64,000 nucleotides of DNA from NCBI GenBank assembly GCA_963921795.1, contig OY997661.1:36691970-36755969 (forward strand), written 5' to 3'. Positions 5,272 through 62,458 of this stretch are shown here, one piece after another. Every line of letters begins with the position of its first letter. The first letter of the stretch is position 1. Under the pieces are notes generated by a model. That model was not told where the DNA came from and made no database searches. It was given only the letters and a program-made list of their open reading frames with translations. The translations under genes and the position numbers were made by a program. Origin of the DNA: Nannobrachium achirus (taxonomy: Eukaryota > Chordata > Actinopteri > Myctophiformes > Myctophidae).

Positions 5272-8200
5272 ATGTGTGTGTGCGTGCGTGCGTGCGCATG
5301 TGTGTGTTTTACCAGAGCCCAACCTGAGAGCCAAAATGTAATCAATAGAGCACATGACTGCCGCTAGAGGGCGCTAATCTTTGGCATGGACCACCCAGCA
5401 TATCGAGAAATACATTCCAATGTCCCCAGTAACCAACTCACCCAAAGCATAATTATGGAAGTTCTCAGGTCTCCGTCTCTTCCCCTGTCCTGGGTTCTCA
5501 GGACCAACAGTCCTGGCTGATGAGGCTGGAGAACTGGACTCCACTGACTGGTCTGAAATGAAGGAATAGAATAAGGACTTTAACACAAACTCTGTTTTTC
5601 AAAGCTGTGACCCAAAATGCATTACACAGGGTTTCCCACACACTTTTACCAGTGAATTTCCTCTGTCCTGGGCGCTCCGGACAAACAGTCCTGGCTGATG
5701 AGGCTGGAGAACTGGATTGCGCTGACTGGTCTGAAATGAAGGAATAGAATAAGGACTTTAACACAAACTCTGTTTTTCAAAGCTGTGACCCAAAATGCAT
5801 TACACAGGGTTTCCCACACACTTTTACCAATGAATTTCCTCTGTCCTGGGCGCTCCGGACAAACAGTCCTGGCTGATGAGGCTGGAGAACTGGATTCCAC
5901 TGACTGGTCTGAATTGAAGGAATAGAATAAGGACTTTAACACAAACACAAACTCTGTTTTTTAAAGCTGTGACCCAAAGTGCATTACACAGGGTTTCCCA
6001 CACACTTTTACCAATGAATTTCCTCTGTCCTGGGCGCTCAGGACAAACAGTCCTGGCTGATGAGGCTGGAGAACTGGATTGCACTGACTGGTCTGAAATG
6101 AAGGAAGAGAATAAGGACTTTAACACAAACTCTGTTTTTCAAAGCTGTGACCCAAAATGCATTACACAGGGTTTCCCCGCACACTTTTACCAATGAATTT
6201 CCTCTGTCCTGGGCGCTCCGGACAAACAGTCCTGGCTGATGAGGCTGGAGAACTGGATTCCACTGACTGGTCTGAAATGAAGGAATAGAATAAGGACTTT
6301 AACACAAACTCTGTTTTTCAAAGCTGTGACCCAAAATACATTACACAGGGTTTCCCCAATCCCCACACACTTTTACCAATGAATTTCCTCTGTCCTGGGC
6401 GCTCCGGACAAACAGTCCTGGCTGATGAGGCTGGAGAACTGGACTCCACTGACTGGTCTGAAATGAAGGAATAGAATAAGGACTTTAACACAAACACAAA
6501 CTCAGTTTTTCAAAGCTGTGACCCAAAATGCATTACACAGGGTTTCCCCACACACTTTTACCAATGAATTTCCTCTGTCCTGGGCGCTCCGGACAAACAG
6601 TCCTGGCTGATGAGGCTGGAGAACTGGACTCCACTGACTGGTCTGAAATGAAGGAATAGAATAAGGACTTTAACACAAACTCTGTTTTTCAAAGCTGTGA
6701 CCCAAATTTCATTACACAGGGTTCCCACACATTTTTACCAAAGAATTTACAAAACTTTTCCAGAATATTTAACCCAATTTCCAGGCCTATATAACAATCA
6801 TTCAGCACAATAACGATGTGCAAAGCCCAAAGACAGGCAGTGTAGCAAAAACTAGGGGAAATCTCGCTTTTGCGAACGCCCATCATTTTGACTCCACGGA
6901 GGTTAAGGTTAGGGTGAGGGTTAGAGTCGGGTGTCGAAAAGATGAGATGTAGTAACAGCGACACGCTCCCAAAAAATAAAACATAGAATGGTATTATGGT
7001 ATAATTCCATTCCAAATTTCGTGCCAAATTCTTTTCTACACCGCCTATCCTAGGACATAGTGGATATTAGTTAAATTGCTTACGCTTCTTCACTGAAGAT
7101 TCACTTGTTGATGCACTGCACAGGTCGGTGTCACGTCGCGTGACAAAGGACAGAAAACTGCCTATAAAGCCTATAAAGCACATAAAGCACAACATAATTC
7201 ACTTCCATGCTGCATTCAGAAATTGTTCCAAATTAAAGAGACCAGGTATGAGCTGAGGGGTAAACTTATGTTTGAAATGATGACACCTAGAACAAACATT
7301 AAGGCCTGATTTACACTGCCACCAAAATCCAGCCTGAATCAGATCTGTGTCACATCAAAAGTGATATCCGATTTGTTTAAATAGTCAAATGCAGACAGGT
7401 CACATGCAGGTCACATGAAATCCGATTTTGAGAAACCACATCCAGAGGTGGTTTCAAATCCAGATTTCAGGACATCTGTCTCAGTCTGAAAGCAGTAACC
7501 AGATGCACCCCATAGAGTTATACGCAAGTCACATCAAACTGTCCTAACGCCACTTGCTGCGCGACCTGAGCTCCACTGTAATGGCGTCATTACAGAGCGC
7601 AAGTATTTACTATTTGATTACAGTGTGCTGAGCACATGAGAAAAACAAGAGAGAAGAGAGAAACATGTGAGCTAAATAGATAAAACCAGAGAGAAGAGGC
7701 AAACACAAGAGTAAAGAAAAGAAGAGATAAAAACAATATTGTAACGTGTGTTTGCTTTTGTTGTTGTCGCCTGTCTGTTATGTCACATTTCCTGAACGCT
7801 ATCAACTAGCGTCAACGTTGTGACGTAACATCATGATGCCTACGTCGTTACCACGGTAACCAAAGCAGATATGTTGACGAAGGGCAGCTTTGGGCTGAAG
7901 CTGTTAAAATCAGTCTGAACACACAGATCCGATCTGGTCACTTGCAAATGCAGTGTGAAAAGTCGGGCCAAAAGATCTGATTTGAGAACCGCTGGATTTG
8001 ACTGTAAAATCCGGCCTAAGAAGAGTTGTACATCAGTCAGGGCACAAGAAACATGGAATAGCTGTGAAAATGACCTAAAAATTAGCAGTTCATTGTGCCA
8101 GTTCAGTTACAACCCCAAGGTTAAAGCAATATGAGTGTGCAGTAGGGCTTGTTGTAGTCATACACATTTTTTGTGTTTATTGTAATTTAATTTCACTTTT

Positions 8201-18425: not shown

Positions 18426-18839
18426 GTATGTATAAACACGATCTTTGTGCCAATTGTGCGCCATTGTGTGTCTGTTTAGCGGATTCTAGCTAGGTTGCTA
18501 AGTGCTAGCTCGCTGCATGGCTTTTTTGGTTCGGGTGGGGTGAAAATCAAACAGCTAATGTTGAATATCTTTTGTAATGTTCTTTAAAGGGATATTTAAC
18601 TTTCAAAAACACTTTTGTTCATTTTATTGTCTAATAAGGCGTTAGGCGTACGAAACTGAAACACCCTGGATAGTTTTTAATTTGCTTCATTCAATAGTTA
18701 TATGTTTTATGTAAATGTTTCCAGGCCCTGCTCCTCCAGGGCTTCTTCCCATACACACCCATTGTAGCTTCAAACTCTATTTTAACCATGATGGATTCTT
18801 TAAAAACACCCATTAGATTTTCTGGTTACTCATACTACC

Positions 18840-18991
18840 CTCCTAATACGTGAGCAGGCCGTGTCGATAACATTTTTTCATTTATTTTTTAATAATTATT
18901 TATTGTATTAAATTTGTTCCATTTCCCAAAGAATGTTTTTAAATAAATGAAAAAAGTTATTGAAAAAACACGGCCTGCTCACGTATTAGGA
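18840..18991. repeat. Palindrome CTCCTAATACGTGAGCAGGC
   Basis: CTCCTAATACGTGAGCAGGC at the left is mirrored by GCCTGCTCACGTATTAGGAG at the right with AT-rich inner arms. The same palindrome is at 37660-37812. Confidence 0.8.
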
Positions 18992-18992
18992 G

Positions 18993-20010: not shown

Positions 20011-20245
20011 ATTAGGAGGGTAGTATGAGTCACCAGAAAAAAATAATGGGTGTTTTTAATGAATCTATCATGGTTAAAATGGAGTTTGAAGTTACAATAA
20101 TGTGTATCCGGGTGAGGCCCTGGGCCTGGAGGGCCGGATAACATTAACATCAACTATCTGAATCAAGCAAATTAAAAACTGTGTTCATAAAAGCGTGATT
20201 AGATGATAAAATGACCAAACGTTTTTTTGAAAGTGAAATATCCCT

Positions 20246-21376
20246 TTCTTTAAGTCAGTGGTTCTCTTTGACATGCATGAGACTAGGCCTACGGACCCCC
20301 ATTTAAGAGTATTTCACTCCCCAAATGACTTATTTTCTATTGATTAGTCACACCATGCCATGGAGCCTTGATTTGTATTTGTCGCATTCTTAAGATAAAA
20401 AAAAATGATTAGGCCTATAGTAAATTTACCCCCATTGATTCTGGATGGGGATTCCAATGCATGGAACTGGATGGGGACCCAAATGCATTTGGGTCAGAAT
20501 CAATGGGGGTAAATTTAGGGTCAAGTAATTTATATTGTAAAATCAATTTGGAGTATTTATTAGAAGTTTGCATAGGGAAATGTACAGTTTCATGACAGTA
20601 CAGTTCACTTATACAAGGTCAACTAAGATGTAAGACATGACATTTTCTATTAATTTAAATATATTTGAAATTACTAAATGCCACTCATTTAGTTATTTGC
20701 CATGTAAGCAATGTTTAAGGGAACAGAATTGGTGTAGACAGAAAAAAAAGTGGTCCAAGTATGATGCCAACTCAGGTCCATTGTATGACGGACAAATTAA
20801 AATTGGTGTGATACGATTATGTTGATAGTTTTTTATTTGCGATAAATTCAAATTATTGTCCCTTCCCTAGGAAAGGTAAGGCAATTAGGCCTACTGTAAA
20901 TGTGCATGGACATCTCAAACATAAAAGTGCTATATTTGTGGGAATCAATCCAATTAAGCACAATCCCATGCTGTCATGTCCCTAGCTTGATTCAATACAA
21001 TATCTGTTTATTCTTAAGAAGTCACATTCTTGCATGGTGAACTATACATTTCCATGTTTTTAGCAAAAGCCAAATCTTGTGAGACTCGACAAGAGAAAAC
21101 ATAGGCTCTAGCTCAAGCCCTAAACACTCACTTTACTGAAGCTTGGTTGATTGATTGATTTAAAATTAGAGGTTTGCTTAGGAAAAGGTACAGGACAGTA
21201 CGGCAACTAAAAGGAAATAAACCACAAGAGATCTTTTGGCTTGTTTAAATTGGGGTCCCTTTTACAATTCATACAAGTCATGTAAGGACACTATCCAACC
21301 TTTGTTGTTCTTTACACCCCATTTTCCCTCTGTTTTAATTGTTTAAAAACGTCCTTATTCCATTCCTTCATTCCAG
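20246..21376. other. Gene A intron with MITE fragment
   Basis: 20310-20530 is a degraded copy of the 58442-58748 MITE family (CCCCAAATGACTTATTTTCT, then the hairpin around TTTACCCCCATTGATTCTGG). From about 20985 to 21376 the intron is colinear with 56630-56868 of gene B (GCTTGATTCAATACAATAT, TTCTTGCATGGTGAAC). Confidence 0.55.
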
Positions 21377-26061: not shown

Positions 26062-26719
26062 TTAAGGAGGGCCCTACAATTTTGAGGTATTTTTTACTTT
26101 ACTGGAGTGTTTTATATTTTCAGTACTTTTATTTCTACTCCACTTCATCTCAAAATAAATCATTGTAGGCTACTTTTACTCCCCTGCAGTTATTAAAAAA
26201 AAAAAAAAAGTTATAAAAAAATACTGTTTAATTATTATTACAAAACATTCATTAATCACTATATATACATTTCGGCCATTTGAAATTAGCCGATCTACAA
26301 GCTCACAGTGCGTGACGGACATTTACTTGTAACGGTTTATTTCTACATTGCAGTATCGATACTTTTACTTGTTGATAATGATACTTTTACTTGATTACAA
26401 AATATGAGTACTTGTCAGTCCGTGAAGCCATGGTGATGAGGACACGGCAGGGTGGGGGGGCAGAAATGGGCGTGTCCAGCTGATTTCTCGAGCAAGAGAG
26501 ATTTGCTTGCTTTCGTCATTTTCACGCGACAACTTTATTATTATCCGAAGTTATTTCCCAAAATGGCCGCAGTTGGTCTTATTAATTTATAAACCTCAAA
26601 TGTAACTATGTATTTTCAAACTAATAGGACTCAAATATATGTTAAAAATACTTAGGGGGACCTTTAGAGACATGTGTCAACAGTTTTACAAGGCAAATTT
26701 CATGGTGCCTACACTTTAA

Positions 26720-27398
26720 CTCATTCTGTGCCTATCCCGAACATGTTCGGCTTTATTTCAATCCAATACAAATTTCTTTTTATTAATTGACTTACCCTGA
26801 GCTGCTTGTAGAGTCGTGGGTGGTCCTGGCTCGTCCTACGCTAGCCAGCTAGCCATTTTACATGGTCCGACGATATATTCCATTAAAAATGGTTTAAAAT
26901 ACATTTTTGAGCCCCCCAATGTTCACCAAATGTTCAGCGCCGCTTCCGGAACGTAGTCCAGTGTGCCTATCCCGAACATGTTCGGCTTTTTTAATGAAAT
27001 GAATAAAATGATCCGAGGCCTTCTGAAGCCTGAGCCTAAATTTAAAATCCAGTGTCCCAAATCCGGGGGTCGCCATGCCGGCCGTTAGCCGCGAACGGAA
27101 CCGCGAATCGCCGCCGAATCCAATGAAAAACCACATCTTTGGAGGCCCATATCTCTGGATTGTGTTTTTAGGGATGTGGCGCGAGGTTTATTTACGGCGA
27201 AATCGCCGAAAAATGATCTTTAAAATGACAAAATGGGAATAGCTATTCTGTTAGCATTATCATCCGGGACCTTTCCATGACGTGCACGAACGTGAGCACG
27301 CGCGTCACTGCAACGTGAGCCCCCGGATGCTAATGCAGTCCCCTATGGGAGAAAGTCTGGCATTCTTTGGTGCCCTCTAGGGGCTGGCACTGGAAGCG
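26720..27398. mobile_element. piggyBac-type MITE, copy 1
   Basis: TTAA at 26716-26719 and 27399-27402. Left end CTCATTCTGTGCC resembles the complete piggyBac end CTCATTTACTGCC. Contains CCCGAACATGTTCGG twice. It shares an 80-codon minus-strand reading frame (26894-27136) with the copy at 36927. Confidence 0.65.
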
Positions 27399-28075
27399 TT
27401 AAGGGAACAATTATTCCTTTTTCTAGGTGAGGGACAGAAGAGGAGAGGTTTGCCTTGTGCTATCATTAGCTGCAGCTTAAAATAACCTTCAGAAAGGTAA
27501 TGGAGAACAGAGACGCAAAGTCAGTGTCATAGTATGATAAGAAAAAGTGAACTCATCAAACACCCCTCTTAATTCAACAATGGAGTTATAGCCCACTGTA
27601 GGGCAACCTTTTTGACAAGTGCCAAGTTTTAATTGTCTTGATAGTCAGTGTGCCATATCAGCATGAAGTTAAATCATGACACCACGTAAATAAATATATG
27701 TATTTATAAATAATGTTTTTGATTGTCCTGTAACAACCTTTCGAAATATTTTCTTTCGCATCAGGAGCCTAATGATCATTAATCTCGCAATTGGCAATAA
27801 ACCCAAAAAGAAAACTCACACATTTATGCCAGTGTTCCAGTGATTACCATCCCCCTGGTTTAGACCAATGCTTCCCAACAATATAAAATCCATGAAACTA
27901 TTGAGAAAATAACTACAAAATTGCATGTAAGTGAAATTATCCCGATGAAGCGAGCCGATCCTATATCTCCTACATTTTTGGCATGTAGTAATGTTTAAGC
28001 ACAGTCCAACTTCAGTGCAATGTTTCTCACATTATTCATTGAAAAATAAACAAGTATTAGTAATGTCATTTAGAG

Positions 28076-32159: not shown

Positions 32160-32240
32160 GAGAGAAAGCCCTACCACTGTGACCAATGTGGAAAATGTTT
32201 TAGATGGAGTTATGCATTAAGGGCTCACCTTTGCAACTGA
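32157..32240 (+). pseudogene. Gene A residual zinc finger
   Basis: Encodes [19 protein letters not shown] then ALRAHLCN and TGA, matching the last finger of gene B (HFRWSCALRAHPCN). No splice acceptor precedes it. The last pairing residues are degenerate (H-x-C), as in gene B. Confidence 0.75.
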
Positions 32241-32481
32241 ACAGGACCTTAACTCATTTACTGCCACCACCTGGGAAACCCGAGAAAATGTCGCTGTCTC
32301 TCTCCGCCAGGCCTGAGAAACCAGAGAATTTGCTTTATATAATGTTATGCTAAATTACATTCTTCCCTAGCCTGTGACAAAGTCTGAGGCTTCTGTCATA
32401 AAGGGAACCAAAATATCACACATCAAAGTTGGTGTGTTTGAAAACGAGATACATACTGTAAATGTATAAATCTCCCCTTAA

Positions 32482-32932
32482 AGTTGCTATAAGCAGTTTT
32501 CTGCTGACATTTATTTTTATTTGATTCAGGCGGCTAACAAGGCTCCCTAAAAAATCTAGTCTCTGTGGCTCTTCTAGGAGCCTCAGTCTGCCTCCAAAAC
32601 TATTATTTTATCTGTAAGAAACTCTGTCACTAGCAGCTCATTAGCGCATGAACCAGCCGACCGGGACTAAAAGGATTGACAGACAGGTCAACCAGTCCGA
32701 ACAAGAACAAGAGGCGGTCCTGATTGGTCTGCTTATTTGGCAGGCTATCCATCTATCGACCAATGACAAAACTTCTCACACATAAAAATAATAGTTTTGG
32801 AGGCAGATTGTGGCCCCAGGAAGTGTCACAGAGACAACATTTCTTTAGGAAGCATGGTTAGCCGTCTGAATATAATAAAATAAAAATAAGTAATTGCCTG
32901 CTTATGTCAGCAGAAAACTGCATGTAGCAACT
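32482..32932. mobile_element. TTAA-flanked foldback MITE
   Basis: TTAA at 32478-32481 and 32933-32936. Arms of about 165 bases: AGTTGCTATAAGCAGTTTTC against GAAAACTGCATGTAGCAACT. It lies inside the piggyBac, 5' of the transposase gene. Confidence 0.75.
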
Positions 32933-33700
32933 TTAACCCACAGTGAAGGCATTTCTCACAAGGCTGCAGAGTGCAGACAGCACAGTCGTGCAGAGACTAG
33001 CAGTGGAGTGACGCGGCAACGTAAACAGAGCGGCTGGATCTAAGAGACAATTCTGCATAAATCAAAATCCAGTACATTTCTCACTTGAAAAGCTGTGACC
33101 TGCCAATGGTCAACACAACACACAGCTCCATACCCTACCAAAAATGTTCAAAGTCTCCACAACAAAATATTATGTCCCGGACAGACAACAACGGTGCTAG
33201 ATCAGAGTCAGTGCCAGGCCCTCTCTGAACCAAAACAAACCACCACAAACACATCAACAACACATCTACACCTGCCAGATTGAAAGCATTCAAAATCAAA
33301 CTCTCAAAAGGTTTTAAAAGGAACACATGAAATTACCTCAGTGTTGGGGTAGTAGGTAGGAGCGTTGCAACAGAGAGAAAAAGATAGTTGAGTTGAATAG
33401 TATCTAGTTTCAATAGATCTGTAAGTAGTATAGCATAGTAGGTATAGTTATTAGTTCCTTTGGTTAGAGTTATTTCCATTATTTGAAACATTTTTCCTCC
33501 TTTTCTGAGTGGGTTTAATCCCCCCACGGCAAGCAGGGACTCCTGCCGGGCCCGGGAAGCGTTCTCTGGCTGCTTCGAGCCATGGTGCGGCGGTCCCCTC
33601 GACCAGTGGTTCCTGTGAACCAGCCCGATCATCAGGCCCTGCTCGCGGACGACCTAGAAGGAGAAGGCTTCCCCCGGTCTTCCCTCCTGGTCAGGCGGAA

Positions 33701-33915
33701 ATGGACACCTTTTTGTTGTCCTCTGTGCCCTGTCCGGAGACTGATTCCGAGGTCGACGAAGGGCCGGAGTCGGAAAACCACACACCACAAACCACGTCTC
33801 CATTGCCCTCTGTCGCCACCCCCGGGACCCCGAAATCAGTGGTTTGTTGGCCGGGTCTGACGGAAAGGGTCGCGTCCGTAAAAAACATCCTCGAGTCTCC
33901 ATATAACTCCCAGCG
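33701..33915 (+). CDS. Transposase exon 1
   Basis: Begins MDTFLLSSVPCPETDSEVDE and ends NILESPYNSQR split by the donor CAGCG|GTATGT. The frame is also open upstream to about 33509 without an ATG. An ATG in another frame at 33582 would overlap but does not fit the splicing. Confidence 0.65.
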
Positions 33916-35650
33916 GTATGTATTATCCTTATCGTTGACTTTGTATCAGTGAACTGTAGGCTACTCTCCTGTACTTTTTCCCTATGCTACTTTTTCCTAT
34001 ACGAATACATTATTCAATCAATCTATCAGGTCCTCCTCGTCTGATGAGCTCTCTGACACAGAGAGCTGGATGGAAGGATCCCTGGAAGAGTGGCAGCCGT
34101 GGCAGAAACACACTGACGATCGTTTCGTTGACGGTACGTTTTTTTTTTTTTGTAATATATATTTGTTATTTTCAGGCTCGAGTAAGTCTGCTAACCTCGC
34201 TTCACCAGCGGCACCCCGTGGGAAGCCTGGTTTCTATTGCTAACCAACTAGTGTGATCGTTCGAAAGCCCGCCTACTGTATCTGGTTATGTACACCCTTA
34301 CATATCCGGAATAGACCCAGACCGGATCAACAACTGGCATAGTAACTTGATCCCAGTCTTCGGGATGGCCAACGGTTAAGCATTAACGCTTAATGGTGAC
34401 CGATAAAAAAGAAAAGCAACCCACAAAAACCCCATACACCAACGTCTTTGGAATCGTACACGCTGACTTGTTCATCAGGAAACAAAAGCTCAGATTATAA
34501 TTTTTTATTTTTTTCCCAAAACGGACCCCTGTCACATTAAATCCTGTTTAAGAAGAGCTTAAAACACAACTTGACGAGTGGAACGTTAATCAGTCTTGGT
34601 TGTGCGAAAATAACACAAAGCTCAGACTCGTAATGATGCTTCATCAGCACACATAAAACACGGGCGAGAGATACAATTAAAGGTGATACACCATGCATTT
34701 AAAAAAAAAAAAAAAATCTTCAAAAACGGCCGTCGTTGACGCCAGCGACGGCAGCAAATCTGGACAGCCTGTTTTGAGAACCCGTGGGATGCTTTTAACC
34801 TCCGCCTTGCCAAAACCAGAGAAAGACACAACGGTCAGAAATGGGACTTTGTGAGGATAGAAGGTGCTAGTGGGACCCCAAAAAAAGGTTTTAAAATAGG
34901 AAAAGTGAAATTTCATGGTGTATCACCTTTAATGAAATAGACATCACGTTTCTTAGCCGATGTTTCAACCATTCCAAAAGTCGATTGGAAATTATTGCTC
35001 TGCACAACAAACTCGAGGAGTGGGGGGAAAGAGTCGATCTACTTGAAGCTGCTGTTATGCTACAAATTACTGACTGATGATGTCAATCCTACCGTTTCTT
35101 TGTAAAAAGATTTCTTATTGAAAACATTTGTAGGCTATTCTTGTTTCTCCTAGCTTTATTGTTTTTAATGTGTAAATATGGCACTTTATTATGGAGAAAA
35201 ACTCCTTTAACCATTAAAATTTCCTTAATGGTTAACGGTTATTTAACCGATAAGGCCTTACGGTTACCGGTTAAGAACAATTCTCCATTTGGCCATCCCT
35301 AAATGGTCTGCGAATGCCTAAACGTGCATGTCTAAACATATCTGTTATTATCAGGTTCGTTTGATGAGGGTGATGATGATGAAGATGTTGATGTTGGTGA
35401 TGCTTCCCCACGTGGTGGAGGTAAGAATAATTTTGTGTTGATTTCAATGCTTTTCACCTACAGACATTTCAACTGAACTTTTCATTCAAATTGAGTCGTA
35501 AATAAGTTTATTTTATTTTTGTATAATACGTTTATTTTATTTTTGTATGTGTTTTCAGATGCTGATCCGAATAGGCCTGCATCTGTGTCAGGCAGAGAGA
35601 CACAGATACACAAATGCGGTAAGATTATTTTTATTTTCCTCGCTCTTAGC

Positions 35651-35681
<31 letters not shown>

Positions 35682-38600
35682 GAGAGATATATATATATAT
35701 ATATAGAGAGAGAGACTAAGTAATGTATTTTATTGTAATTGTATTGCTTAGCTTTTCACAAAAAATATATATAATAATTGATTTTATTTTGGAATGTGTT
35801 TTCAGATGATGATCTGCAGAGGCCAGGCAGTGGGACACAGACCGGCAAACACAAAACAGGCCACGGTAAGATCCCCCCACCCCCTGCTTTTACTGCTTAG
35901 CACTATAGGCCTATATATAGGAGGCGCGACGTTGGTGCAGTGGTTAGTGCATATGCCCTTCATGCGGAATTTTGAGTGGTTCAAACCCTCTGCCTAGGCC
36001 GACGTCAGCAAGGGGGAGAAGACAACAGTCACCTCATGGCCTCCCCTAAGTAACAAGAAATCTTGTGAAATAAAATGTCGCCAACCAGTCATCAAGGATT
36101 TTGATTTTGTGGAGCTGATGATACACAAGTTTAATGAAACATTCATTTTCCATTTAATTAAGAAGCTAGATATATAAAGTAGCATTGCTGACCTTCAAAT
36201 AATGGATAAAAAAGACCAAGGAATAACAGAAAATTGTAAAGAAAGATGGATAACAAATCATTTTAGTATCATGTCATTGTTGTGTTCATTCTAAATGGAC
36301 ACAGACATGTAGATACAAAAGAATACTTAATGTCAAGTACAAAGCCTACTGACATGGTTTGGAAATCTGTCTCACACAAGAGCTTCATTTTAGCAGTTAC
36401 AGTTAAGCTGATTTTCCATAACAGTTTTTTAGACACCGCACCGCACAGCATTTTAATATGTAGGTTTTCCACTACAGTATATCCAACTGCAGGGCTGGGG
36501 AACACAATTCTGCCTATAATCGACCTCTTTATAAACAGATATATAAAACAAACAGGCGTTGCTTTTATATTTGCTTTGCAGCCGTGACTGCAAACTAAAA
36601 TCTGTCTCAAATTATGAAGACACAGCTCAGCCAGTGAGCCAGATTCTCCGACCAATCAGTATCAGTAGCGCGTATACGTCACTTTTAGTTTTAAGGCACC
36701 GCTTGGACCAGCCCGGACCCACTCTAGAGTGGATACTTAAAGGGATATTCCACTTTCAAAAAAACCTTTGGTCATTTTATTGTCTAATCAGACTTTTATG
36801 AACACCCTGAACAGTTTTTAATTTACTTCATTCAATATTTAGATATTTGATGTAAATGTTATCTGGCCCTCCAGGCTCAGGGCCTCTCCACATACGCACC
36901 CATTGTAACTTCAAACTCCATTTTAACTCATTCTGTGCCGATCCCGAACTAGTTCGGCTTTATTTCAATCCAATACAATTTTTTTTTTATTAATTCACTT
37001 ACCCCGAGCTGCTTGTAGAGTCGTGGGTGGTCCTGGCTCGCTAGCCAGCTAGCCATTCTACTCTGTCCGACGATATATTCCATTAAAAATGGTTTAAAAT
37101 ACATTTTTGAGCTCCCCAATGTTCACCCAATGTTCGGCGCCGCTTCCGATGAGTACACGAGTGTGCCGATCCCGAAGTAGTCCGGCTTTTTTTAATGAAA
37201 TGAATAAAATGATAAGAGGCCTTCTGAAGCCTGGCCTGATTTTTCTAGCTACTAGCCGAAAGCTAGCAACCTCCCGGCCGGCCGTTATTTGCGAACGAAA
37301 TCGCCAATCTCCGCCTAATCCAATGAAAGACCACATCTTTGAAGGCTTATATCTCTGGATTGTGTCTTTAGGGAAGCGGCGCGAGGTTTATTTACGGCGA
37401 AATCGCCCAAAAATGATCTTTTAGATGACAAAATGGGAATAGCCATTCTGTTAGCATTATCATCCGGGACCTTTCCATGACGTGCATGAACGTGAGCACG
37501 TGAGGTCCTGGAAGGTGAGGTCCTGGAAGCTAAAGCGCTCGCCTATGAGAGTTACCCTGGCATTCTATGGCCCCTAGAGGGCGCTGGCACTAAATGAGTT
37601 AACCATGATAGATTCATTAAAAACACACAATTTTTTTTCTGGTGACTCATATTACCCTCCTAATACGTGAGCAGACCGTGTTTTTTCAATAACCTTTTTC
37701 TTTTATTTTTAATAATTCTTTGGGAAAATGGAAAAAATTAAATACAATAATATTTTATTAAAAATAAATGAAAGAAGTTATTGAAAAAACACTGCCTGCT
37801 CACGTATTAGGAGGGTATTATGAGTCACCAGAAAAAATAATGTGTGTTTTTAATGAATCTATCATGGTTAAAATGGAGTTTGAAGTTACAATGGGTGTGT
37901 ATGTGGAGTGGCCCTGGGTAACATTTACATCAAATATCTAAATATTGAACGAAGCAAATTAAAATCTGTTCATGGTGTTCATAAAAGCCTGATTAGACGA
38001 TAAAATGACCAAAAGTTTTTTTCAAAGTGGAATATCCCCGTTTTGTACCACTTTCACACCACTCTACCCAGTTCCTTGTTGTGAAAACCCGACACAAGTG
38101 TGTGGGATGGGGCCATGCATATGGAAAACCGGCTTTAGTCAGGTGGAGAAATATGAAAAAGAACACAAAAAAGGCCTGGTCCTTCAGGCTTCAGTACAGT
38201 GCAATTATTGTAGGGGTCCATTTGGTTCCATTTGTACACTCCCCTGAGTTACACATACTGTACCCATAAGGGTCCATTTGGTTCCTATCATTTAGCTGGG
38301 GACCCCCTAGAACTCCTTAACAGTTTCTATGCCAGCCCATTTCAGTGTTTTTTTACGACCACAAGAAAACACTGTTTACACATCTATCCGTTCTGTCCAT
38401 TCCTTTCAGTACCCTGGGTGACGCTAAATTCTACCACAGTTACACTCATACGATCATGCTAACAAAATGAGCTAATAGCTACTTTTGCGTCGGGCGCTCC
38501 GCGCACACGCTCCGTGCATGTGATGGTAACGATCGGAACCGCGTTGCCACCAGCTGCTCAGATCTTTTTTCCGAATGAAGCTACGACTTACGGGTGAGGA

Positions 38601-39455
38601 GGAAAGTGTGTGTTTGTGTTTCATGCATTCTAAGGTCTTTTCACAACAAAACAGTCACTTCCTTCCGTACACTTCCTGTTTTCATTCAGTCACATGATCT
38701 GCCACTGGAGACAAGCGTTTAGGTTCCGTACGGAACCCTTGTTGTTAAATCGGCAAAAATAATGTATTTTGAGTTTTATAACAAAAATAGCCTATTCTCG
38801 TCAATCTTCGTCTGTGGCCTGGCTGCCTAATTAATCATTCTCGTCAATCTACCCCCGTGGCTTGGAAACTGTTAAGGCCCCCTGGGGATCCCCAGACCCC
38901 ACTTTGAAAACCAATACTCTATTGTAGCCCTTTGCAGTAAAAACTGATGCTGTGATTTTACCTTTGCTGTCGGCAAGTACGGGGACTTCTGATGGTTGTG
39001 TGTTATATCCAATCCATTACTGTTGCATTCTTATAAAATCCAAACGTTGCGTTTCGCCACTGGAATAATCCATAGAGTTATGGAACTATCACGTTAGTTT
39101 GTTTACAAGTCGCTTTGTCGCACAGTTGCGAGCGTCATTTTACACACACCAGTGTGCTGCGTCGGAAGTAGCAGATCTACACGTTTACAACCCATCAAAA
39201 TGCAACACGCTGTGGGCTTATAGATCTGCAGCTTTCCCGCAGGCAGCTTTTTCTTTTTTCTTCTTTCCGTTGCACTGTGTTTAGCAGCGCTCACTTTTGA
39301 ACTAATGATTTGTAACAGTAAACGTGAGTTCAGAGTTCCACAGCAGGTTAATTATTTAATGCTAAAATCCAGTGAATCCGATTAATAACTTGTAAGACCG
39401 ATAAATCGACCGATTCAGGTATTCATGTATATATATATGTATATATCATATGCCT

Positions 39456-39490
<35 letters not shown>

Positions 39491-41167
39491 CTATTGTATA
39501 TGTACTGTATGGTAATCTATCTATTTAAATAATTTATAGGTTGTGGACATAAACGTGTGCAGCCTCCTGCATCTACTGGCTGGAGGAGTGAGGAGGAGAC
39601 TCCTTGGTGTCCCTTGGAGTTTCCATTTACAGCACAACCTGGGCCCATGAACGAGGCTGCAGCTCTACAATCAGAGCGCCCAGTGGACTTCCTTGGCCTG
39701 TTTCTAACGGAGGAGGTACTGCAGACCATCGTGGACCAAACCAATATATATGCAGCGAAGATCATCAGCACTATCAATTTCACTGAAATGCCCGGTTCAA
39801 AGGCCAGGCGATGGAAGCCGGTCACAGTGGAGGAGATGAAGAAATTTCTGGGACTCTTTTTCCTGACTGGACTTGTTTGGAAACCAGAGATGGAGCTTTA
39901 TTGGAGGGAATGTGTACACGAGACACCATATTTTGGCAAAGTCATGCCTCGCAACAGGTTCCAGTTAATCTTTCGCTTCCTCCACTTCAGCAACGCTGAG
40001 GATACGGGCACAGACCGACTGTACAAGATACGACCGGTCCTTGATTATCTCGTGAGCAGATTCCAGGCCATGTACCAACCATCACAGGACATCTCCATAG
40101 ATGAGGGGACACTGCTTAATAGGGGGCGCCTTGGCCTCAAGGTCTACAATCCCATGAAGCCTGTGAAGTACGGGATAAAATCATACATCTTGTGTGACTC
40201 AGCCACTGGATATTGCCACAACATCCGCCCGTATTGTGGGCAACACGCCAGCTTGTCAGCGACGGTTCACTCCCTCCTTGGTGACCTTGAGGGTCAAGGT
40301 TACAAACTTTTTATGGATAACTTCTACAATTCGGTCGGTCTCTGTAATGAACTCCTGGCCGAGAACACCCATGCATGCGGGACCATCAGGGCAAACAGAG
40401 GTTGCCCTGAAGTAATTCAAAAACCAAATCTCCGTCTGGGGGAGAGAGTTGTCCGTCACCAGGACAACGTCATGGTCATGGCATGGAGGGACGCCAACAT
40501 TGTGCGCATGGTCTCTACCTTCCACCACAACACCACAAGGAAGGTAACAGTCTGGCGGAAGTCTTTGAAAGCCCAGGTAGAGAAAGAAAAGCCAGATTGT
40601 GTAATAGAATACAACAAAAAGATGAACGGAGTTGACAAATTAGACCAGAATCTCTCTTTTTATCCGTGCATGAGGAAGAGTTACAAGTGGACGAACAAGT
40701 TTATGTTGTACATGTTCTCCATCTGTATGTTCAATTCCTTCGTGGTGTATCGGGCCAGAAATCCTGAGGGCACCTTTAAAGAAATGCTGGGCTTTATCGA
40801 AGCTGTTGTCCAGGCCTGGACCTGCCCCAACCCGGGCCCCCGAGCCCTGGCACCTGATCCTCGGGCCATTAAGAGCTCTCGCCATCGCTCTGAAAACATC
40901 CCGCCGACAAACAAGAAGTACCCGACAAGAATCTGTCAAGTATGCAGTGATGAGGGAAAGAAGAGGTGCGAGACGCGCCACCAATGCGCTGTGTGCCTTG
41001 TGCCATTGCACAAGATGTTCTGTTTTGATAAATACCACACGAATTATGATTTTGCAAGAGCCCTCCCCCACAGGCACGCACGCAGGCGCAAGTACAAACA
41101 CACACCTGTTCAGTGGCTGACAGCCCCCCCGCCGGGCCCCCCCCCCCCCCAAGTTCCAACACAGTAG
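33701..41167 (+). CDS. piggyBac-type transposase (PGBD-like), six exons
   Basis: Exons 33701-33915, 34030-34133, 35355-35420, 35559-35618, 35806-35865 and 39540-41167; the first intron is phase 2 and all later ones phase 1. They give 2133 nt, 710 residues, ending in TAG. Exons 1-5 encode an acidic, serine-rich N-terminus. Exon 6 holds the DDE_Tnp_1_7 fold. The catalytic aspartates are D356 (SIDEGTLLNRGR), D428 (LFMDNFYNS) and D534 (MNGVDKLDQ), the D268/D346/D447 equivalents of the moth enzyme. The C-terminal cysteine-rich domain has C-x2-C, C-x5-C-x2-C, then H, C, H (CQVC..CETRHQCAVC..H..C..H). The family excises and inserts DNA at TTAA. The frame is fully open, so it may be active or recently active. 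Start chosen as the first ATG in the spliced frame. Confidence 0.85.
34030..34133 (+). CDS. Transposase exon 2
   Basis: 104 bp between TCTATCAG and GTACGT. Encodes SSSSDELSDTESWMEGSLEE and WQPWQKHTDDRFVD, an acidic stretch with possible casein-kinase-type serines. Confidence 0.7.
34360..35310. mobile_element. DNA transposon in intron 2, itself interrupted
   Basis: Left end CGGGATGGCCAACGGTTAA and right end TTTGGCCATCCCTA are inverted, with TTAACCGATAAGG..CGGTTACCGG subterminal motifs. A TTAA-flanked MITE (34681-34928) sits inside. No clear target duplication for the outer element. Confidence 0.55.
34681..34928. mobile_element. TTAA-flanked MITE (AGGTGATACACCATG)
   Basis: TTAA at 34677-34680 and 34929-34932. 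Ends AGGTGATACACCATG and CATGGTGTATCACCT are perfectly inverted. Confidence 0.8.
35355..35420 (+). CDS. Transposase exon 3
   Basis: 66 bp, phase 1-1, acceptor TTATTATCAG, donor GTAAGA. Encodes SFDEGDDDEDVDVGDASPRG, strongly acidic. Confidence 0.7.
35559..35618 (+). CDS. Transposase exon 4
   Basis: 60 bp, phase 1-1, acceptor GTGTTTTCAG, donor GTAAGA. Encodes DADPNRPASVSGRETQIHKC. Paralogous to exon 5. Confidence 0.65.
35806..35865 (+). CDS. Transposase exon 5 (duplicate of exon 4)
   Basis: 60 bp, phase 1-1. Encodes DDDLQRPGSGTQTGKHKTGH. Same length, splice context (TTTTATTTTKG.ATGTGTTTTCAG) and pattern as exon 4, so a tandem exon duplication. Confidence 0.65.
35925..36066 (+). mobile_element. 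tRNA-derived SINE
   Basis: A-box-like TTGGTGCAGTGGTTAGTGC and B-box-like GTGGTTCAAACCCTCTGCC in tRNA spacing, followed by a non-tRNA body with the CAGCAAGGGGGAGAAG segment. Lies in intron 5 of the transposase. Confidence 0.7.
36741..38039. mobile_element. Foldback element, relative of 18588-20245
   Basis: Ends AGGGATATTCCACTTTC and GAAAGTGGAATATCCC inverted. Inner sequence and the CTCCTAATACGTGAGCAG palindrome (37660-37812) match 18588-20245. It contains a piggyBac-type MITE at 36927-37598. No matching target duplication found. Confidence 0.65.
36927..37598. mobile_element. piggyBac-type MITE, copy 2
   Basis: TTAA at 36923-36926 and 37599-37602. Ends CTCATTCTGTGCC and GGCACTAAATGAG. The relative at 18780-18795 reads TTTTAACCATGAT uninterrupted, giving the empty site. 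About 680 bp like the copy at 26720, with a conserved 80-codon minus-strand frame (37094-37336). Confidence 0.75.
38040..39539. other. Rest of transposase intron 5
   Basis: No exon seen. It contains a GGTCCATTTGGTTCC duplicate near 38215 and 38273, a CCTGGGGATCCCCAGACCCC repeat fragment near 38880, a hairpin relative at 39163-39236 and a (GT)n tract at 39459-39489 close to the exon 6 acceptor. Confidence 0.45.
39540..41167 (+). CDS. Transposase exon 6: DDE catalytic domain and zinc-binding tail
   Basis: 1628 bp, acceptor AATTTATAG, one uninterrupted frame. Contains all three catalytic aspartates, the YNPMKPVKYGIKSYILCDS block, the KWTNKFMLYMFSICMFNSFV helix region, the cysteine-rich domain and a proline-rich tail (PPPGPPPPQVPTQ). 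G/C-rich relative to flanks. Confidence 0.92.
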
Positions 41168-41516
41168 GCAACAGCGGCCATCAGAAGACACAATATAACA
41201 GTATAAATCAGGGGTCTTCAACGTTTTCAGGCCAAGGACCCCTTGGTTAAGAGAGAGATGGAGCAGGGACCCCCACAACCTTTTCATAGATTCCATATCT
41301 ACAAGCTCACAAGCTTGTAGATCGGCTATTTTCGGCTACAGTTCTCAGAATATGGACACTAGGGTTCAAGTGGTTAATATAAAAAGGATTGGAAGATTTG
41401 GAGGACCCCCTGTAGTAACTCTCTCCGCCCCTGCACCTGTTTGAAGTTTCTATTTGTGATGTACTTCTATTTGTGATGTGTGGGGGGGGAAAGAAACCTA
41501 AATTTGATCTGTGCAA

Positions 41517-41522
41517 AATAAA
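41517..41522 (+). terminator. Candidate polyadenylation signal of the transposase
   Basis: AATAAA about 350 bp after the stop, followed by T/G-rich sequence (GTCTGTAAAAAGTGATC, GGGCGTGTGTT). Confidence 0.5.
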
Positions 41523-42073
41523 ACACTTGAATGTAAAAGCAGTTGAATAAAAGTCTGTAAAAAGTGATCCTCCGGGCGTGTGTTATTGCCCTATTAGTTA
41601 TTACACTATGACACTTATTGGCCTATTACATAATTACACTTTTACACTTATGACACTATTACTCTTATTGCCCTATTACATTATTACTTATTAACCTATT
41701 AAACTGTTACTATTAGTTATTGCCCTATTACACTTATAGCCCTATTATTACACTAATACACGTATTGTCCTATTACACATATAGCCCTATTACACTATAA
41801 CACTAAATACACTAATACACTTATCTGATAAGTGCCTGAAGCCATTAAGACAAATATCAAGTGAGTTATCCGCTTGAAAAGAGACCATTCACAAAAACAT
41901 CAATACATCTTTTCTCAGAGGGCTTAATTTTGGAGAAAACAAGGGTTCCCTTTTCTGGTGAAACTATAGGTTATCCTCTTTCATCTGAGCTATTGTGTGA
42001 CATTGTCGTCCAAACGCAAATAGTAAAAAAAAGCCTGATGGTCAATTTTTAATGGTGCCAGTAAATGAGTTAA

Positions 42074-42809
42074 AAGTCCCTGTGTAAATCTTCTCTGTAA
42101 TACATCAATGTTTAGACTGTCCAGAAATATTACATCACACTAAATTAGTGTGATAGAATATTTCGGTACAATCAATCTCAGGGTGAAGCATGATTGAGTC
42201 AAAGTTTTGAGAGTTGAGTCGGAGACTCCTCCAACGTCTCTGATAGCCCACTTCCATCAGGACTCCCTAGCATTTATTTCATATTTGTTCATGATTTTGC
42301 TTATGATCTGCTCCCAGTATGAAATGTACTATAAAATATAGTCAGACATAGCTTACCTCAGCCTTAATGTGTGAATGTAAATCTACTTTTATCCTCTTAA
42401 TACTAAATTAAACATACGGTATAACAGTTTCGTATCTTTGATTAAACACACCTCATCAGACTTTTCCAGTAGTTGAGCTTATATTTCAAACACTAATGAT
42501 TATATTATGTCCAACAAGTTAAATGTATATGAAAACAAGATTGATTTTGATTACTCTAACTTGTAATTAAAAGAAGGAAATACACATTTTACTTTGATTT
42601 CGCAAAGTCTCATGTGCAAGCACACTTTGATGCAGTATCTACGATCAACATAAGACATCTGTGTCTTTTAACCCTAAAAGAACAATCCCATTGTTCCTGT
42701 TACTTGTGCCCCAAAGTTGCGGTTGGGTGTATTTGAACAAAAATAAATGGATAAATAAACATCTGGCTTCCAAAATGACTGACAAGTATTGATGGAGTGG
42801 TCAGATAAG
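42074..42809 (+). other. Displaced 3' flank of gene A
   Basis: Colinear with 61613-62085 downstream of gene B: CTCTGTAATACAT, AGTGTGATAGAATATTTC, GCATGATTGAGTCAAAGTTT, TTGTAATTAAAAGAAGGAA, GTGCCCCAAAGT. Includes AATAAA at 42742-42747, the equivalent of 62002-62007. Now separated from the gene A stop codon by 9.8 kb of transposon. Confidence 0.8.
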
Positions 42810-59200: not shown

Positions 59201-61601
59201 TTTAAGTATTTGGGTTAGGGTCATTGTCCTCGAGTGACAGTATTGTCATTACATTTCTATAGTAGATACAAATGAAGACATTAATGGCTAGGACCATAAT
59301 ATCGAATCATTAATGAAACTGAAAATTATTTTTTAATAGGAAAGTCCATGACAGGTCCTGCCCAGTCAGGTCCTGCCCAGTCTTTGAAACCAACAACACC
59401 ATTATTCCCCGTTTTACATTCAAACTTCATCTACAACCCATGTCACATTAAAGTCCTACCATTCCTTTATTCCAGACCAGTCTGTGGAGTCTAGCCTGCA
59501 GGCGATGAGTTCTCCAGAGTCAGACAGTGCCACAGTTGAAGCTGAAATTGAGGTTGAAGTTGAAGACCACATAGACATCGGTAAGTTTCACATGCACACA
59601 CTCGCACACTTTTTTAACAGTTTATTCATTCCACACAAGGGAAATTTGCATACAGGACATAACTATTACAGGTGCAGGTTAGATTCACAATATCAAGGCA
59701 TTTGTACAAGAATGTCACTCAGTACTCCTTGGCTAAGTGCTTGTTTTCGTCAGAATTGTTCAGTTTATAATAAAAGCGTGAACATTCGCATGAGCAGTCT
59801 CCATGGGTCACTTGACAAGAAAATTATCAGAGGCATTTGAAAATTCAAGATGGCGGCCATTTTCAATATGGCCACCACCTTCTTAAGCCTAACTGCTCCA
59901 ATAAGGTGGTGGCCACTCTTCAGACTCCACCTTAGGCCGCAGCACTTGCCGTAGCATTTGCCCAAGCCTTGATGACCTTGTAGGCTTATGTAGAGACTGT
60001 AATTTTGATAGCATATTATGTAGACGGATGCCAGGTAATTTGTAGACTTGGCATCCTATAGTGTGAGCTTAATAATATAGTAATGATGATAGTTTCTTGG
60101 TTTACCTATGAGCCTAAATTACTATTTCTATGCTTTTGAAGTATTACCTTGTGTTTTCCTTGCTTCCCTGGATTAAGACCGTCTGCTAAATGGCTAAATT
60201 GTAATTAGTTGTTTGGTTCTGGACTTGTGTCAAGAGTGGAGTTTTGTTTCTTCTTGTGTGACCCTCAACACAGAATTTGAGAATGCTACGCCTAAATTAT
60301 TAGTACTACTGCACCATCACTAATAATAATGATGGTAATAGCAGTCTGACAATACAACAACAAAACTTGAATTGAGTAGTTCACCCCCAAAATGTCTTTT
60401 TTTCCTATTGATTACTCACGCCATGGAGACTTAAAATATACAATTTAGGCTTTTAGCAGACTTTAGTTAAATAATATTTTGTTTGTATTTGTCACATTCC
60501 TAAGACAAAAAAAGTATTATAGTAAATGTACCCCCATTGCATTTGCGTCCCCTTCCGGAATCAATGGGGGTAAATGTATTGTAATCAAATTACAAATACA
60601 AATACTTGCATCTATTATCTCCAAATGGCACCATTCTGCAACTGGTCTGTCCACACCGCTGCAACATTGGTGTGGACTGACCTACAATGACTTGACTTGT
60701 ACGACAAATAATTTGTTACCGTAAACCTTTGATGTGACAGTAAATGTTGAATTGAGTTAAGTTGATGTGAATGTATATGTGACAGTAAATGTTGAGTTGA
60801 GTTCTTCTCGGGCCAGTCCAAGCTTGTCAGTTTTTTTTTGCCGCCCTGTATAACAATTAAACTGTATTAAAATGTTTTGGATTATACAGACAACAGGCCT
60901 AGATTCAATCAATTTGAATAACTGCTTAGTCAATTTAAACATTTAGTTTATTTCATGAGTTATTTCTATATCTCCCTTCATCCTCCATCCCAGATGTCTT
61001 TCCCGCCCAACTACCAATGAAGAAACAGTACTACTGTGACCAGTGTGGGAAAGGATTTGGCAATAAAAGTCATCTCGTATGTCACCAGAGAATTCATACA
61101 GGAGAGAAACCTTACCAGTGTGAACAGTGTGGGGAAAGGTTCAGCAGAACAAGTCATCTCAAGCGTCACCAGTTAATTCATACAGGAGAGAAACTCCACC
61201 ACTGTGACCAGTGTGGGAAAAGATTCGGCACAAGCAGTGAGCTCAAACGTCACCAGGGGATTCATACAGGAGAAAAACGCTACAACTGTGAACAGTGTGG
61301 GAAAGGTTTCAGCCAGAACTTTCAGCTCATAAGTCACATGAGTAGTCATGCAGGAGAGAAACCCTACCACTGCGACCTGTGTGGGAAAGGGTACAGCTTC
61401 AGGAGCAATCTCAAAATTCACCAGAGAACTCACACAGGGGAGAAACCCTACAATTGTGCTCTCTGTGAGAAAAGGTACAGTAGAAGCAGTGACCTCAAAC
61501 TTCACCAGAGAACTCATACAGGAGAGAAGCCCTACCACTGTGACCAATGTGGAAAACATTTTAGATGGAGTTGTGCATTAAGGGCTCACCCGTGCAACTG
61601 A
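53235..61601 (+). CDS. Gene B: C2H2 zinc-finger protein, six exons
   Basis: Exons 53235-53274, 56869-56991, 58296-58409, 58916-59032, 59476-59580 and 60994-61601, all joined in phase 1, give 1107 nt and a 368-residue protein. The N-terminal half is a short leader plus four linker modules (DQSVESSLQ..SPAPASTVSIKQEPE..EVEDHL), acidic and with IKQE SUMO-consensus sites in three of four. The C-terminal half has seven C2H2 fingers with TGEKPY-type linkers. Likely a nuclear DNA-binding regulator; targets unknown. It lacks the exon 3 of gene A. No KRAB, SCAN or BTB domain is visible. The gene is an inference from splice signals and paralogy with gene A. Confidence 0.75.
54036..54817 (+). mobile_element. 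Helitron-like copy in gene B intron 1
   Basis: Starts about ATCAAAACCTCCACCGGCC and ends CTCCCGATTAGGGAG-TCTTACTGG followed by T. From 54466 it is the near-identical reverse complement of 10740-11105. Contains the TTTACCCTAGCAACCAACTG minisatellite (54185-54425) and two CCATATATGG palindromes. Confidence 0.55.
54818..55197 (+). mobile_element. Helitron-like copy directly behind the previous one
   Basis: Starts TATAAGCTCCACCGGC immediately after the CTGG of the preceding copy and ends with the same CTCCCGATTAGGGAG hairpin and TCTTACTGG then T. The body (GCACCGTTGCCCCTATCC, CACACACTCCTTGGCTGG) also occurs at 13920-13990 and 57985-58030. Confidence 0.55.
55250..55757. mobile_element. MITE, TAGCCTGGCTCCAGCC family, copy 2
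   Basis: Near-identical to 28790-29302 over its length, with a few deletions. Ends TAGCCTGGCTCCAG and GTCTGAAATCAGGCTA. Confidence 0.6.
55758..56868. other. Gene B intron 1, rest
   Basis: Contains a short-hairpin relative (55935-56008), otherwise AT-rich. From about 56630 it is colinear with 20985-21376 of gene A up to the exon acceptor. Confidence 0.5.
56869..56991 (+). CDS. Gene B linker exon 2
   Basis: 123 bp, phase 1-1, acceptor TTAATTCCAG, donor GTACGT. Encodes EQPVESGLQDKMSSPAPSN then TVSIKQELEENLKEVPED and HLDT. Carries IKQE. Confidence 0.7.
57044..57437. mobile_element. hAT-like MITE with 8-bp duplication
   Basis: GTTATTGG at 57036-57043 and 57438-57445. Ends TAGGGATGGG and CCCATCCCTA, subterminal ATCGATAC/GTATCG repeats. 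Confidence 0.85.
57921..58160 (+). mobile_element. Helitron-like copy in gene B intron 2
   Basis: Starts about TATGAAAAGCTCCACCGGC and ends GACAGTCGATTAGATTGTC-TTACTGG followed by T. The hairpin is GACA/TGTC here. The paralogous intron of gene A lacks it and continues with the same TGTAATTAAGTT. Confidence 0.55.
58296..58409 (+). CDS. Gene B linker exon 3
   Basis: 114 bp, phase 1-1, acceptor TCTATTCCAG, donor GTAAGT. Encodes DQSVESSQQVKISSPAATST then VSIKQEPEAEVKVEDLDF. Carries IKQE and VKVE. Confidence 0.75.
58442..58748. mobile_element. TTAA-flanked MITE (AGGAGTAGTTCACC), second family
   Basis: TTAA at 58438-58441 and 58749-58752. Ends AGGAGTAGTTCACCCCCC and GGGGTTGAACTACTCCT inverted, with an inner hairpin around TTTACCCCCGTTGATTCCGG. 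Degraded relatives at 20310-20530 and 60370-60600. Confidence 0.75.
58916..59032 (+). CDS. Gene B linker exon 4
   Basis: 117 bp, phase 1-1. Encodes DQSMESSLQVEMRSPAPTST then ISIKQEPEAEVEIEDHLGL. Carries IKQE. Confidence 0.75.
59476..59580 (+). CDS. Gene B linker exon 5
   Basis: 105 bp, phase 1-1. Encodes DQSVESSLQAMSSPESDSAT then VEAEIEVEVEDHIDI. No lysine, so no SUMO motif. It joins the finger exon. Confidence 0.75.
59581..60993. other. Gene B last intron
   Basis: Starts with a short CA-rich stretch, contains a SINE-like tail (ACCGTCTGCTAAATGGCTAA near 60178), a degraded MITE of the 58442 family at about 60370-60600 and no exon. The polypyrimidine tract TATATCTCCCTTCATCCTCC precedes the finger exon. 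Confidence 0.5.
60994..61601 (+). CDS. Gene B zinc-finger exon, seven C2H2 fingers
   Basis: Acceptor CCATCCCAG. After DVFPAQLPMKKQ come seven fingers: [96 protein letters not shown] and [16 protein letters not shown]. Putative -1/3/6 contact residues are N/H/C, R/H/R, T/E/R, Q/Q/S, F/N/I, R/D/L and W/A/A. The last finger ends H-P-C and probably binds zinc poorly or not at all. Linkers are TGEKPY-like, with TGEKLH, TGEKRY and AGEKPY variants. Stop TGA, no frameshift. Confidence 0.92.
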
Positions 61602-62001
61602 ATAGGCCTTTAAAAAAACTGTATAAAGCGTCTCTGTAATACATGTTTAGTGTGATAGAATATTTCTGTACAGTTATTTTCTGGGCATGATTGAGTCAAA
61701 GTTTTGAGAGTTGAGTCTCTGACAAACCCACTTCCCTCAGGACTCCCTAGCATTTGTATTTCACACTTGTTCATTATTCTGCTTATGATTGGTGGTTGAT
61801 TTTGATTCTGATTACTGTAACTTGTAATTAAAAGAAGGAATTACATGTTAAGTTCACCAAAGTCTCATTTGCAAGTACACTTTGATACAGTATCTACGAC
61901 ACATCTGTGTGTCTTAACCCTAAAAGAACAATTCCTGCTACTTGTGCCCCAAAGTGGTGGTTGGGTCTATCTATATGAAAGGGGTAATATAAGTAAACAA
62001 A

Positions 62002-62007
62002 AATAAA
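62002..62007 (+). terminator. Candidate polyadenylation signal of gene B
   Basis: AATAAA about 400 bp after the stop, in a segment conserved with 42742-42747 behind gene A. Confidence 0.45.
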
Positions 62008-62458
62008 TGAAAATAAGACTAATACTATACTAATAATACTAAAATAAACGTGGCTTTCAAAATGACCAACAAGTATTGATGGAGTGATGTAATGCATTGA
62101 AGTCAATGACAGCTGGGTGGACAAGTGTATGACTAAATACTATCTTGAATTATGGTGACATTTGTCAAATAATATTGTTTTTTGACATGCACGCTATAAT
62201 TTTATGGAGGTATGTATAAAGAGAGTGTACGATTCTAACTTGGAAGTATGGGCTCCCAGCAAGAGACTTGGTGGCACCCGAGTCGACAGTCTTGCGGAGG
62301 AGTTGAACATAACTCTGAAAAGCTATTAGCAGCAGGTAATCTAAATGGCCTTGGAAAAAGGGTAGAATGACTCTGTTCTTAACAAATCACCAATATTTTG
62401 TGGGAAAAAAAAGTGCATCCATCAATTAAGCTTGTTTAAAGGTCTGTGGGCTGGGTCG

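Follow-up and report, generated by a model that had tools for sequence, protein, structure and literature searches.

Bounds of the Element and Its Target Site

The 64-kb stretch of DNA analysed here—the window, corresponding to G000:C24:36691970-36755969—contains two paralogous genes, A and B, and raises the question of what the sequence is that stands behind the stop codon of gene A at a place where, in gene B, the sequence runs on through a single TTAA. Gene A ends with a zinc finger and stop codon located immediately to the left of the element described below (32165..32240, + strand), the stop TGA (32238-32240) being followed by 8 bases and then by a TTAA from 32249; in gene B the stop TGA (61599-61601) is likewise followed by 8 bases and a TTAA from 61610. 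The original prediction had placed in gene B a pre-insertion site composed of a stop codon, a few bases, and a TTAA, and that description agreed with what we found, one TTAA being present at the homologous place; the positions then assigned to it, 61609-61612, read TTTA, the true place (61610..61613) being one base away. In addition, the 3' flank of gene B (61614..62090, + strand), which had been thought identical to what follows from 42074 onwards in gene A, proved to be only homologous to the flank of gene A (42074-42780): CTCTGTAATACAT begins at 42093 in gene A (42093-42105) and occurs at 61632-61644 in gene B, preceded by 19 imperfectly matching bases in the former and 18 in the latter, and over 383 aligned sites the two flanks show 42 differences (11%), along with 18 indel events. 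Because of those differences, the paralogue sets both boundaries of the insertion, as had been proposed, through homology in combination with the TTAA rule, and not through identity.

Between those boundaries lies a complete piggyBac-type element of 9,817 bp (32253..42069, + strand), delimited by its ends, the TTAA, and an open DDE frame. The left terminal inverted repeat (32253..32269, + strand) is 17 bp long and matches the right one (42053..42069, - strand) at 16 of 17 positions, which length falls within the 12-19 bp given for the short terminal inverted repeats of the piggyBac superfamily (PMC10175614). As read from the sequence, a TTAA adjoins each end (32249..32252 and 42070..42073), as opposed to the single TTAA of gene B, and the inverted ends coincide with the breakpoints of the homology between A and B. 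Those ends start with CTCATT, which corresponds neither to CCYT nor to CACTA, CCCTC, CCCTT, or CCCAT, the usual starts in the superfamily; because PMC10813416 states conservation for almost all, though not all, of the superfamily ends, we took CTCATT to mark a subfamily and did not count the usual starts as defining. A looser pattern of the ends occurred 5 times in the 64-kb window, versus 0.92 expected, with 5 being reached in 1 of 100 shuffles; the matches were the two ends of the element, the two ends of a nested MITE, and one end of another MITE. Since the ends sit on the A/B breakpoints, and relatives elsewhere end similarly beside a TTAA, we judge them to be beyond chance. Judged by eye, most of the relatives compared have a longer right subterminal part, and that of the window copy is closer to the C22 copy. 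At 9.8 kb, the element is just above the range of 1.23-9.51 kb recorded in one survey of small animal genomes (PMC10813416), and near the longest of its relatives in the same genome.

As to the host gene, a regular expression located six regular finger motifs in gene B (61035-61517) and none in gene A directly to the left of the element. Compared with gene B (61035-61613), the zinc-finger array of gene A is gone except for the last, irregular finger (32165-32240), which scores under the Pfam cut-off (14.4 versus 25.2 bits) and is adjoined by a CA repeat. The zinc-finger exon of gene A thus looks worn down, and the insertion of the element was probably harmless. Elsewhere in the window, self-comparison revealed a tandem repeat at 5480-6748, built of units of some 180 bp.

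The Transposase and the Class of the Element

We modelled six exons on the + strand from GT/AG splice sites and the open frame, which model is a prediction from the sequence alone: exon 1, with the ATG at 33701 and an acidic N-terminus (33701..33915); exon 2 (34030..34133); exon 3 (35355..35420), before which an optional 6-nt exon (34176-34181) would also keep the frame; exon 4 (35559..35618); exon 5 (35806..35865); and the last exon, with the DDE domain, a Cys-rich C-terminus, and the stop codon (39540..41167). Joined, these exons would constitute one open frame of 710 aa. The starts of exons 4 and 5, acceptor sites included, are 85% alike (35531-35577 versus 35778-35824), perhaps as a result of an exon duplication.

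The last exon matched DDE_Tnp_1_7 in Pfam (1.6e-86; 291 bits versus a cut-off of 22.4) and, among the solved structures, piggyBat (9c0f, 1.3e-91) and piggyBac (6x67, 2.8e-28). The match with piggyBat includes the Cys-rich end as a second aligned domain (last-exon residues 449-504), and the Cys/His spacing that characterizes the piggyBat-like clade is present in that C-terminal domain. Moreover, Asp 356, 428, and 534 align with D237, D309, and D413, reported as the catalytic residues of piggyBat (PMC11707139), whose numbering here results from subtracting a six-residue tag from the structure record. Among the matches listed (120 of 229), the best outside protein was P0001 of an ENA contig, with 67% identity over 92%, while the best-scoring named protein reached 51% over 89% and the best-scoring named relatives were from fishes. 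In the tree, the window copy grouped with its same-genome relatives and P0001, apart from the named fish proteins included.

With both ends, both TTAA copies, and an open spliced DDE frame present, the original prediction of a complete piggyBac-type transposon was borne out. We consider it close to certain that this locus holds a complete piggyBat/PGBD4-like piggyBac element that inserted behind gene A and was later enlarged by other elements, and from its sequence we assign that element to the piggyBac superfamily as a new member with clear bounds, whose ends are of a variant CTCATT type and whose predicted multi-exon transposase frame is intact. If, alternatively, the element were of the Kolobok type, which likewise uses TTAA, the target site would also be accounted for, and two MITEs that are Kolobok-like by their ends do lie inside the element; but the last exon matched only DDE_Tnp_1_7 in Pfam (E up to 0.1) and only piggyBat and piggyBac in the PDB, and the ends read CTC..GAG instead of the purine-purine ends described beside the TTAA of Kolobok elements (PMC6004289). 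The transposase family and the ends rule out this class, to which we would accord next to no probability.

Related Copies Elsewhere in the Genome

A protein search of the 1.66-Gb genome, where the best 80 of 1,332 candidates were scored, gave as the next-best matches after the window copy one of 74% over almost the whole length and one of 76% over part of it. No near-identical sibling appeared among those scored matches, so that the mobility of the window copy is something that we can only infer. A search with the right 250 bp of the element (best 40 of 870 candidates scored) gave no other full-length match among the scored candidates, the next best by score being 88% alike over the first half, with shorter stretches of up to 93%.

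When the loci of seven relatives were searched for the ends (at most 3 mismatches in 18 letters), both ends were found beside a TTAA in four: at C13:63.26 Mb (5,570 bp), C13:63.86 Mb (8,175 bp), C22:54.78 Mb (9,173 bp), and C22:33.24 Mb (7,092 bp, read from the two loci L024 and L003). The C15 relative had the right end only, the C8 relative the right end only and with TTTA, and the C5 relative neither end within the fetched stretch. In those four of the seven, both the ends and the adjoining TTAA recur, so that the original prediction passed the check that it had set for itself; and such ends, together with the TTAA rule, are from the sequences compared regarded as family traits. The dN/dS of the window copy was 0.24-0.27 in relation to five relatives, 0.39 to that on C8, and 0.18 to that on C22, and among the relatives themselves the values were likewise 0.2-0.4. 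We also observed piggyBac-like frames of 541 codons each, with equal scores versus the window protein, at C9:33261077, C13:41616864, C14:57206873, and C19:5408702, which uniformity suggests another, recently active family.

The absence of a near-identical sister copy among the scored matches also bears on the reading of gene B. The excision of piggyBac leaves no scar and restores a single TTAA, so that the TTAA of gene B fits two histories: one in which the element never entered gene B, and another in which the same element had formerly occupied gene B and then left it, the apparent empty site being in fact a vacated one. This second history requires two events instead of one, and the scored matches include no near-identical sister copy; we regard it as very unlikely, and retain the single insertion behind gene A as the preferred explanation.

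Nested Insertions and the Length of the Element

The length of 9.8 kb had been attributed to introns and nested insertions, of which explanation the second part stood and the first did not: about 5.0 of the 9.8 kb are made up of three stretches that are extra with respect to the relatives (32482-32932, approximately 34358-35313, and approximately 35896-39451), whereas the introns without nested insertions are short. All three would fall outside the modelled exons. The first (32482..32932) has inverted ends starting with AGTTGC and a TTAA on either side (32478-32481 and 32933-32936), and may, by its ends only, be a Kolobok-like MITE; at its place, the relatives C13a and C22b read CTCCCAATAAACCACAG. 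The second (34358..35313, limits approximate), with the ends GGGATGGCCAA / TTGGCCATCCC and no clear duplication, could at most be called hAT-like, and the relatives C13b and C15 run across its place, with some 6 bases between the matched stretches. The third (35896..39451, limits approximate) comprises a SINE-like stretch recognized by eye, a foldback, and other sequence, all within the last intron, which in the three relatives compared measures only about 0.2-0.3 kb. The stretch 41092-41581, behind the frame, was considered as a fourth nested insertion and excluded from the extra length because the relative C13a holds there about 580 bp of different sequence.

The foldback of the last intron (36741..38039) is T2/Kolobok-like: it begins with TTAA-AGGGA, the start cited as a mark of T2/Kolobok MITEs (PMC6004289), the TTAA being followed by AGGGATATTCC, and its right TTAA is decayed. 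Its left arm is split by a TTAA MITE of 672 bp (36927..37598, + strand; CTCATTCTGTGCC...GGCACTAAATGAG) with a TTAA on the left (36923..36926) and on the right (37599..37602), and the empty site of that MITE is kept as a single TTAA in the foldback's own right arm (37868..37871) and in two more copies of the foldback that the window contains, in one of them at 18782..18785. Apart from the foldback of the last intron, its family is represented in the window at 18584-18992 and 20011-20247, and had 3,757 candidates in a first look at the genome, of which the best 40 were scored; six of the seven copies fetched were within 1% of their majority.

The MITE, for its part, had 2,486 genome candidates at first look (best 40 scored), and the 39 scored matches besides the window copy were 98-99% identical over 671 or 672 bases, one further match at 85% adjoining one of these. 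A TTAA was present on both flanks in 28 of 30 copies, the window copy included, one copy being without the left and one without the right, and the nested MITE differs from the majority at 1 of 672 sites. An older, related MITE in the window (26720..27398, + strand; TTAA at 26716-26719 and 27399-27402) differs from the nested one at 97 of 670 sites. We read from these comparisons that a TTAA MITE with ends similar to those of the element has moved very recently. The family at C9:33261077 was considered as the mover of the nested MITE and rejected, with no MITE-like ends beside a TTAA in the 6.6 kb fetched.

In the sequence of events that we propose, the element entered the TTAA that stands eight bases after the gene A stop codon, and that TTAA was thereby duplicated, as the sequence shows. 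By homology, the spliced transposase would bind the ends through its Cys-rich domain, and the DDD core would cut those ends, with the element being pasted into the TTAA. Later insertions into the introns and the part before the coding region, as the comparison with the relatives shows, approximately doubled the length; among them were the T2/Kolobok-like foldback and, thereafter, the very young TTAA MITE, with no modelled exon being hit.

Age of the Insertion and State of the Frame

The upper bound for the age of the insertion is set by the split between A and B, at 11% of the 383 sites of the 3' flank. For the lower bound we used the foldback, in which 6 of 435 sites are private with respect to ten other genome copies and the end branch is 1.7%, which count leaves out the window copy W18782 and accompanies a tree with several weak forks; with seven copies compared, 18 of 628 sites had at first counted as private. 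The arms of the foldback differ at 21 of 292 sites, and dating by those arms was set aside because only 1.4-1.7% is private to this copy versus the family members, while the nested MITE, at 1 of 672, was too young to be of help. We then simulated the neutral evolution of the 2,130-bp frame (2,000 runs per value; 0.14 indels per substitution, 80% taken as frame-shifting), and the frame stayed open in 5% of the runs at 1% divergence and in 0.2% at 2%, or, read between those two values, in about 1% at the observed age.

If the frame had been held by selection in place, the copy would be no longer just a transposon, but a gene in the making. That none of the later insertions, which total roughly 5.0 kb, touches a modelled exon would accord with such a situation, as would the age taken from the nested foldback and the low proportion of simulated frames that stayed open at that age; the simulation accordingly leans towards a kept frame. 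The calculation nevertheless depends on six private changes and a weakly supported tree, and some of those changes may be older than the insertion; the nested MITE is by itself compatible with a recent date; and the mobile relatives likewise show a dN/dS of 0.2-0.4. That the copy is becoming a gene is, in our estimation, unlikely.

A Cluster of PiggyBac-Like Frames on C2

Among the best-scoring matches listed, 17 last-exon frames resembling piggyBac transposases lie within about 0.5 Mb (contig C2:71346320-71844360), all on the + strand. All 17 are open, with 528-594 codons from stop to stop; the frames 71346 and 71677 run to the end of the fetched stretch, and the one stop inside each of the matches 71720, 71761, and 71805 is, from its position, that which ends the frame, the match having continued past it. 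In a tree of 48 rows, 15 of the 17 formed one clade (support 90/98, just under the starred level) and two were placed elsewhere. From twelve selected pairs, we obtained dN/dS by pairwise counts: eleven pairs within the clade gave 0.54-1.23, with the highest value in the youngest (1.23 at dS 0.028), and the twelfth, formed by the two frames outside the clade, gave 0.36; the pN/pS of 15 pooled close pairs was 0.84. In windows of 25 columns, values above 1 were found once near the N-terminus (1.20) and in six C-terminal windows (1.16-1.79), which lie in the linker and the Cys-rich domain, while three other C-terminal windows were below 1 (0.63, 0.81, and 0.20). A catalytic Asp was changed in 5 of the 15 clade members (71368, 71399, 71441, 71677, and 71696), and in the three members compared, the flanks outside the frame were alike only in short stretches. 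The member L029 (C2:71441) seemingly has a second Cys-rich C-terminal unit. We regard the 15-member clade as fast-evolving.

The Cys-rich domain of piggyBat binds the transposon end, and the cluster might conceivably serve as a defence, with DNA-binding and partly dead transposases tracking and blocking the ends of live elements like that of the window. The absence of broken members among those listed would agree with such a function, as would the within-clade ratios, the C-terminal position of six of the seven windows above 1, and the changed Asp in a third of the clade. Against this proposal, only the best-scoring candidates are listed, a selection that could conceal broken members; relaxed constraint can also produce ratios near 1; and the comparison covers the last-exon frames. 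We therefore consider a defence improbable, and offer it as a speculation. At the level of titles and abstract openings of the papers listed, we found none on such a cluster of piggyBac transposases in the literature.

Significance and Comparison with Known Systems

The locus offers a clean case, exact to the base, of a fish piggyBac-type element with several exons, in which insertion into TTAA is controlled internally and independently at two places, gene B and the untouched foldback arm. It adds an intact transposase frame associated with variant CTCATT ends, and suggests that the genome harbours several piggyBac families as well as a TTAA MITE of very recent origin. The element by itself is largely ordinary and changes no general view, which the C2 cluster might do; of the two, that cluster is perhaps the lead of greater interest.

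A virus-borne or Teratorn-like origin was also considered and set aside: six short peptide patterns, sensitive to close relatives only, led to no confirmed transposase relative in viral_contigs, nor was any found in phage records, both sets being weak tests for a fish virus and the tests concerning the transposase only. Teratorn of medaka shares with the present element a piggyBac-type transposase, short inverted ends, the TTAA, and a fish host, and is described as being 180 kb long and fused with a herpesvirus (PMC10175614), whereas the transposase was the sole gene recognized in the window element, of which two frames were passed through Pfam and one through the PDB. With the piggyBac of T. 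ni (6x67/6x68) the window transposase shares the DDE core (2.8e-28), but the C-terminal domain of the former is outside the aligned stretch; the Cys-rich domains of pB and pBat are stated to fold differently (PMC11707139). The fish PGBD4-like proteins (of Sphaeramia, Alosa, Gadus, and others) have the same domain and about 50% identity, and yet the window copy clusters not with those named proteins but with the relatives of its own genome and P0001 (67%). The likeness to piggyBat of Myotis lucifugus (9c0f) comprises the DDE core, the catalytic Asp triad, and the Cys-rich C-terminal domain. The two differ in that the identity is 38% over 75% of the query, in the end sequences, in the nested insertions of the window element, and in its predicted N-terminal exons, which are acidic and separated by introns.
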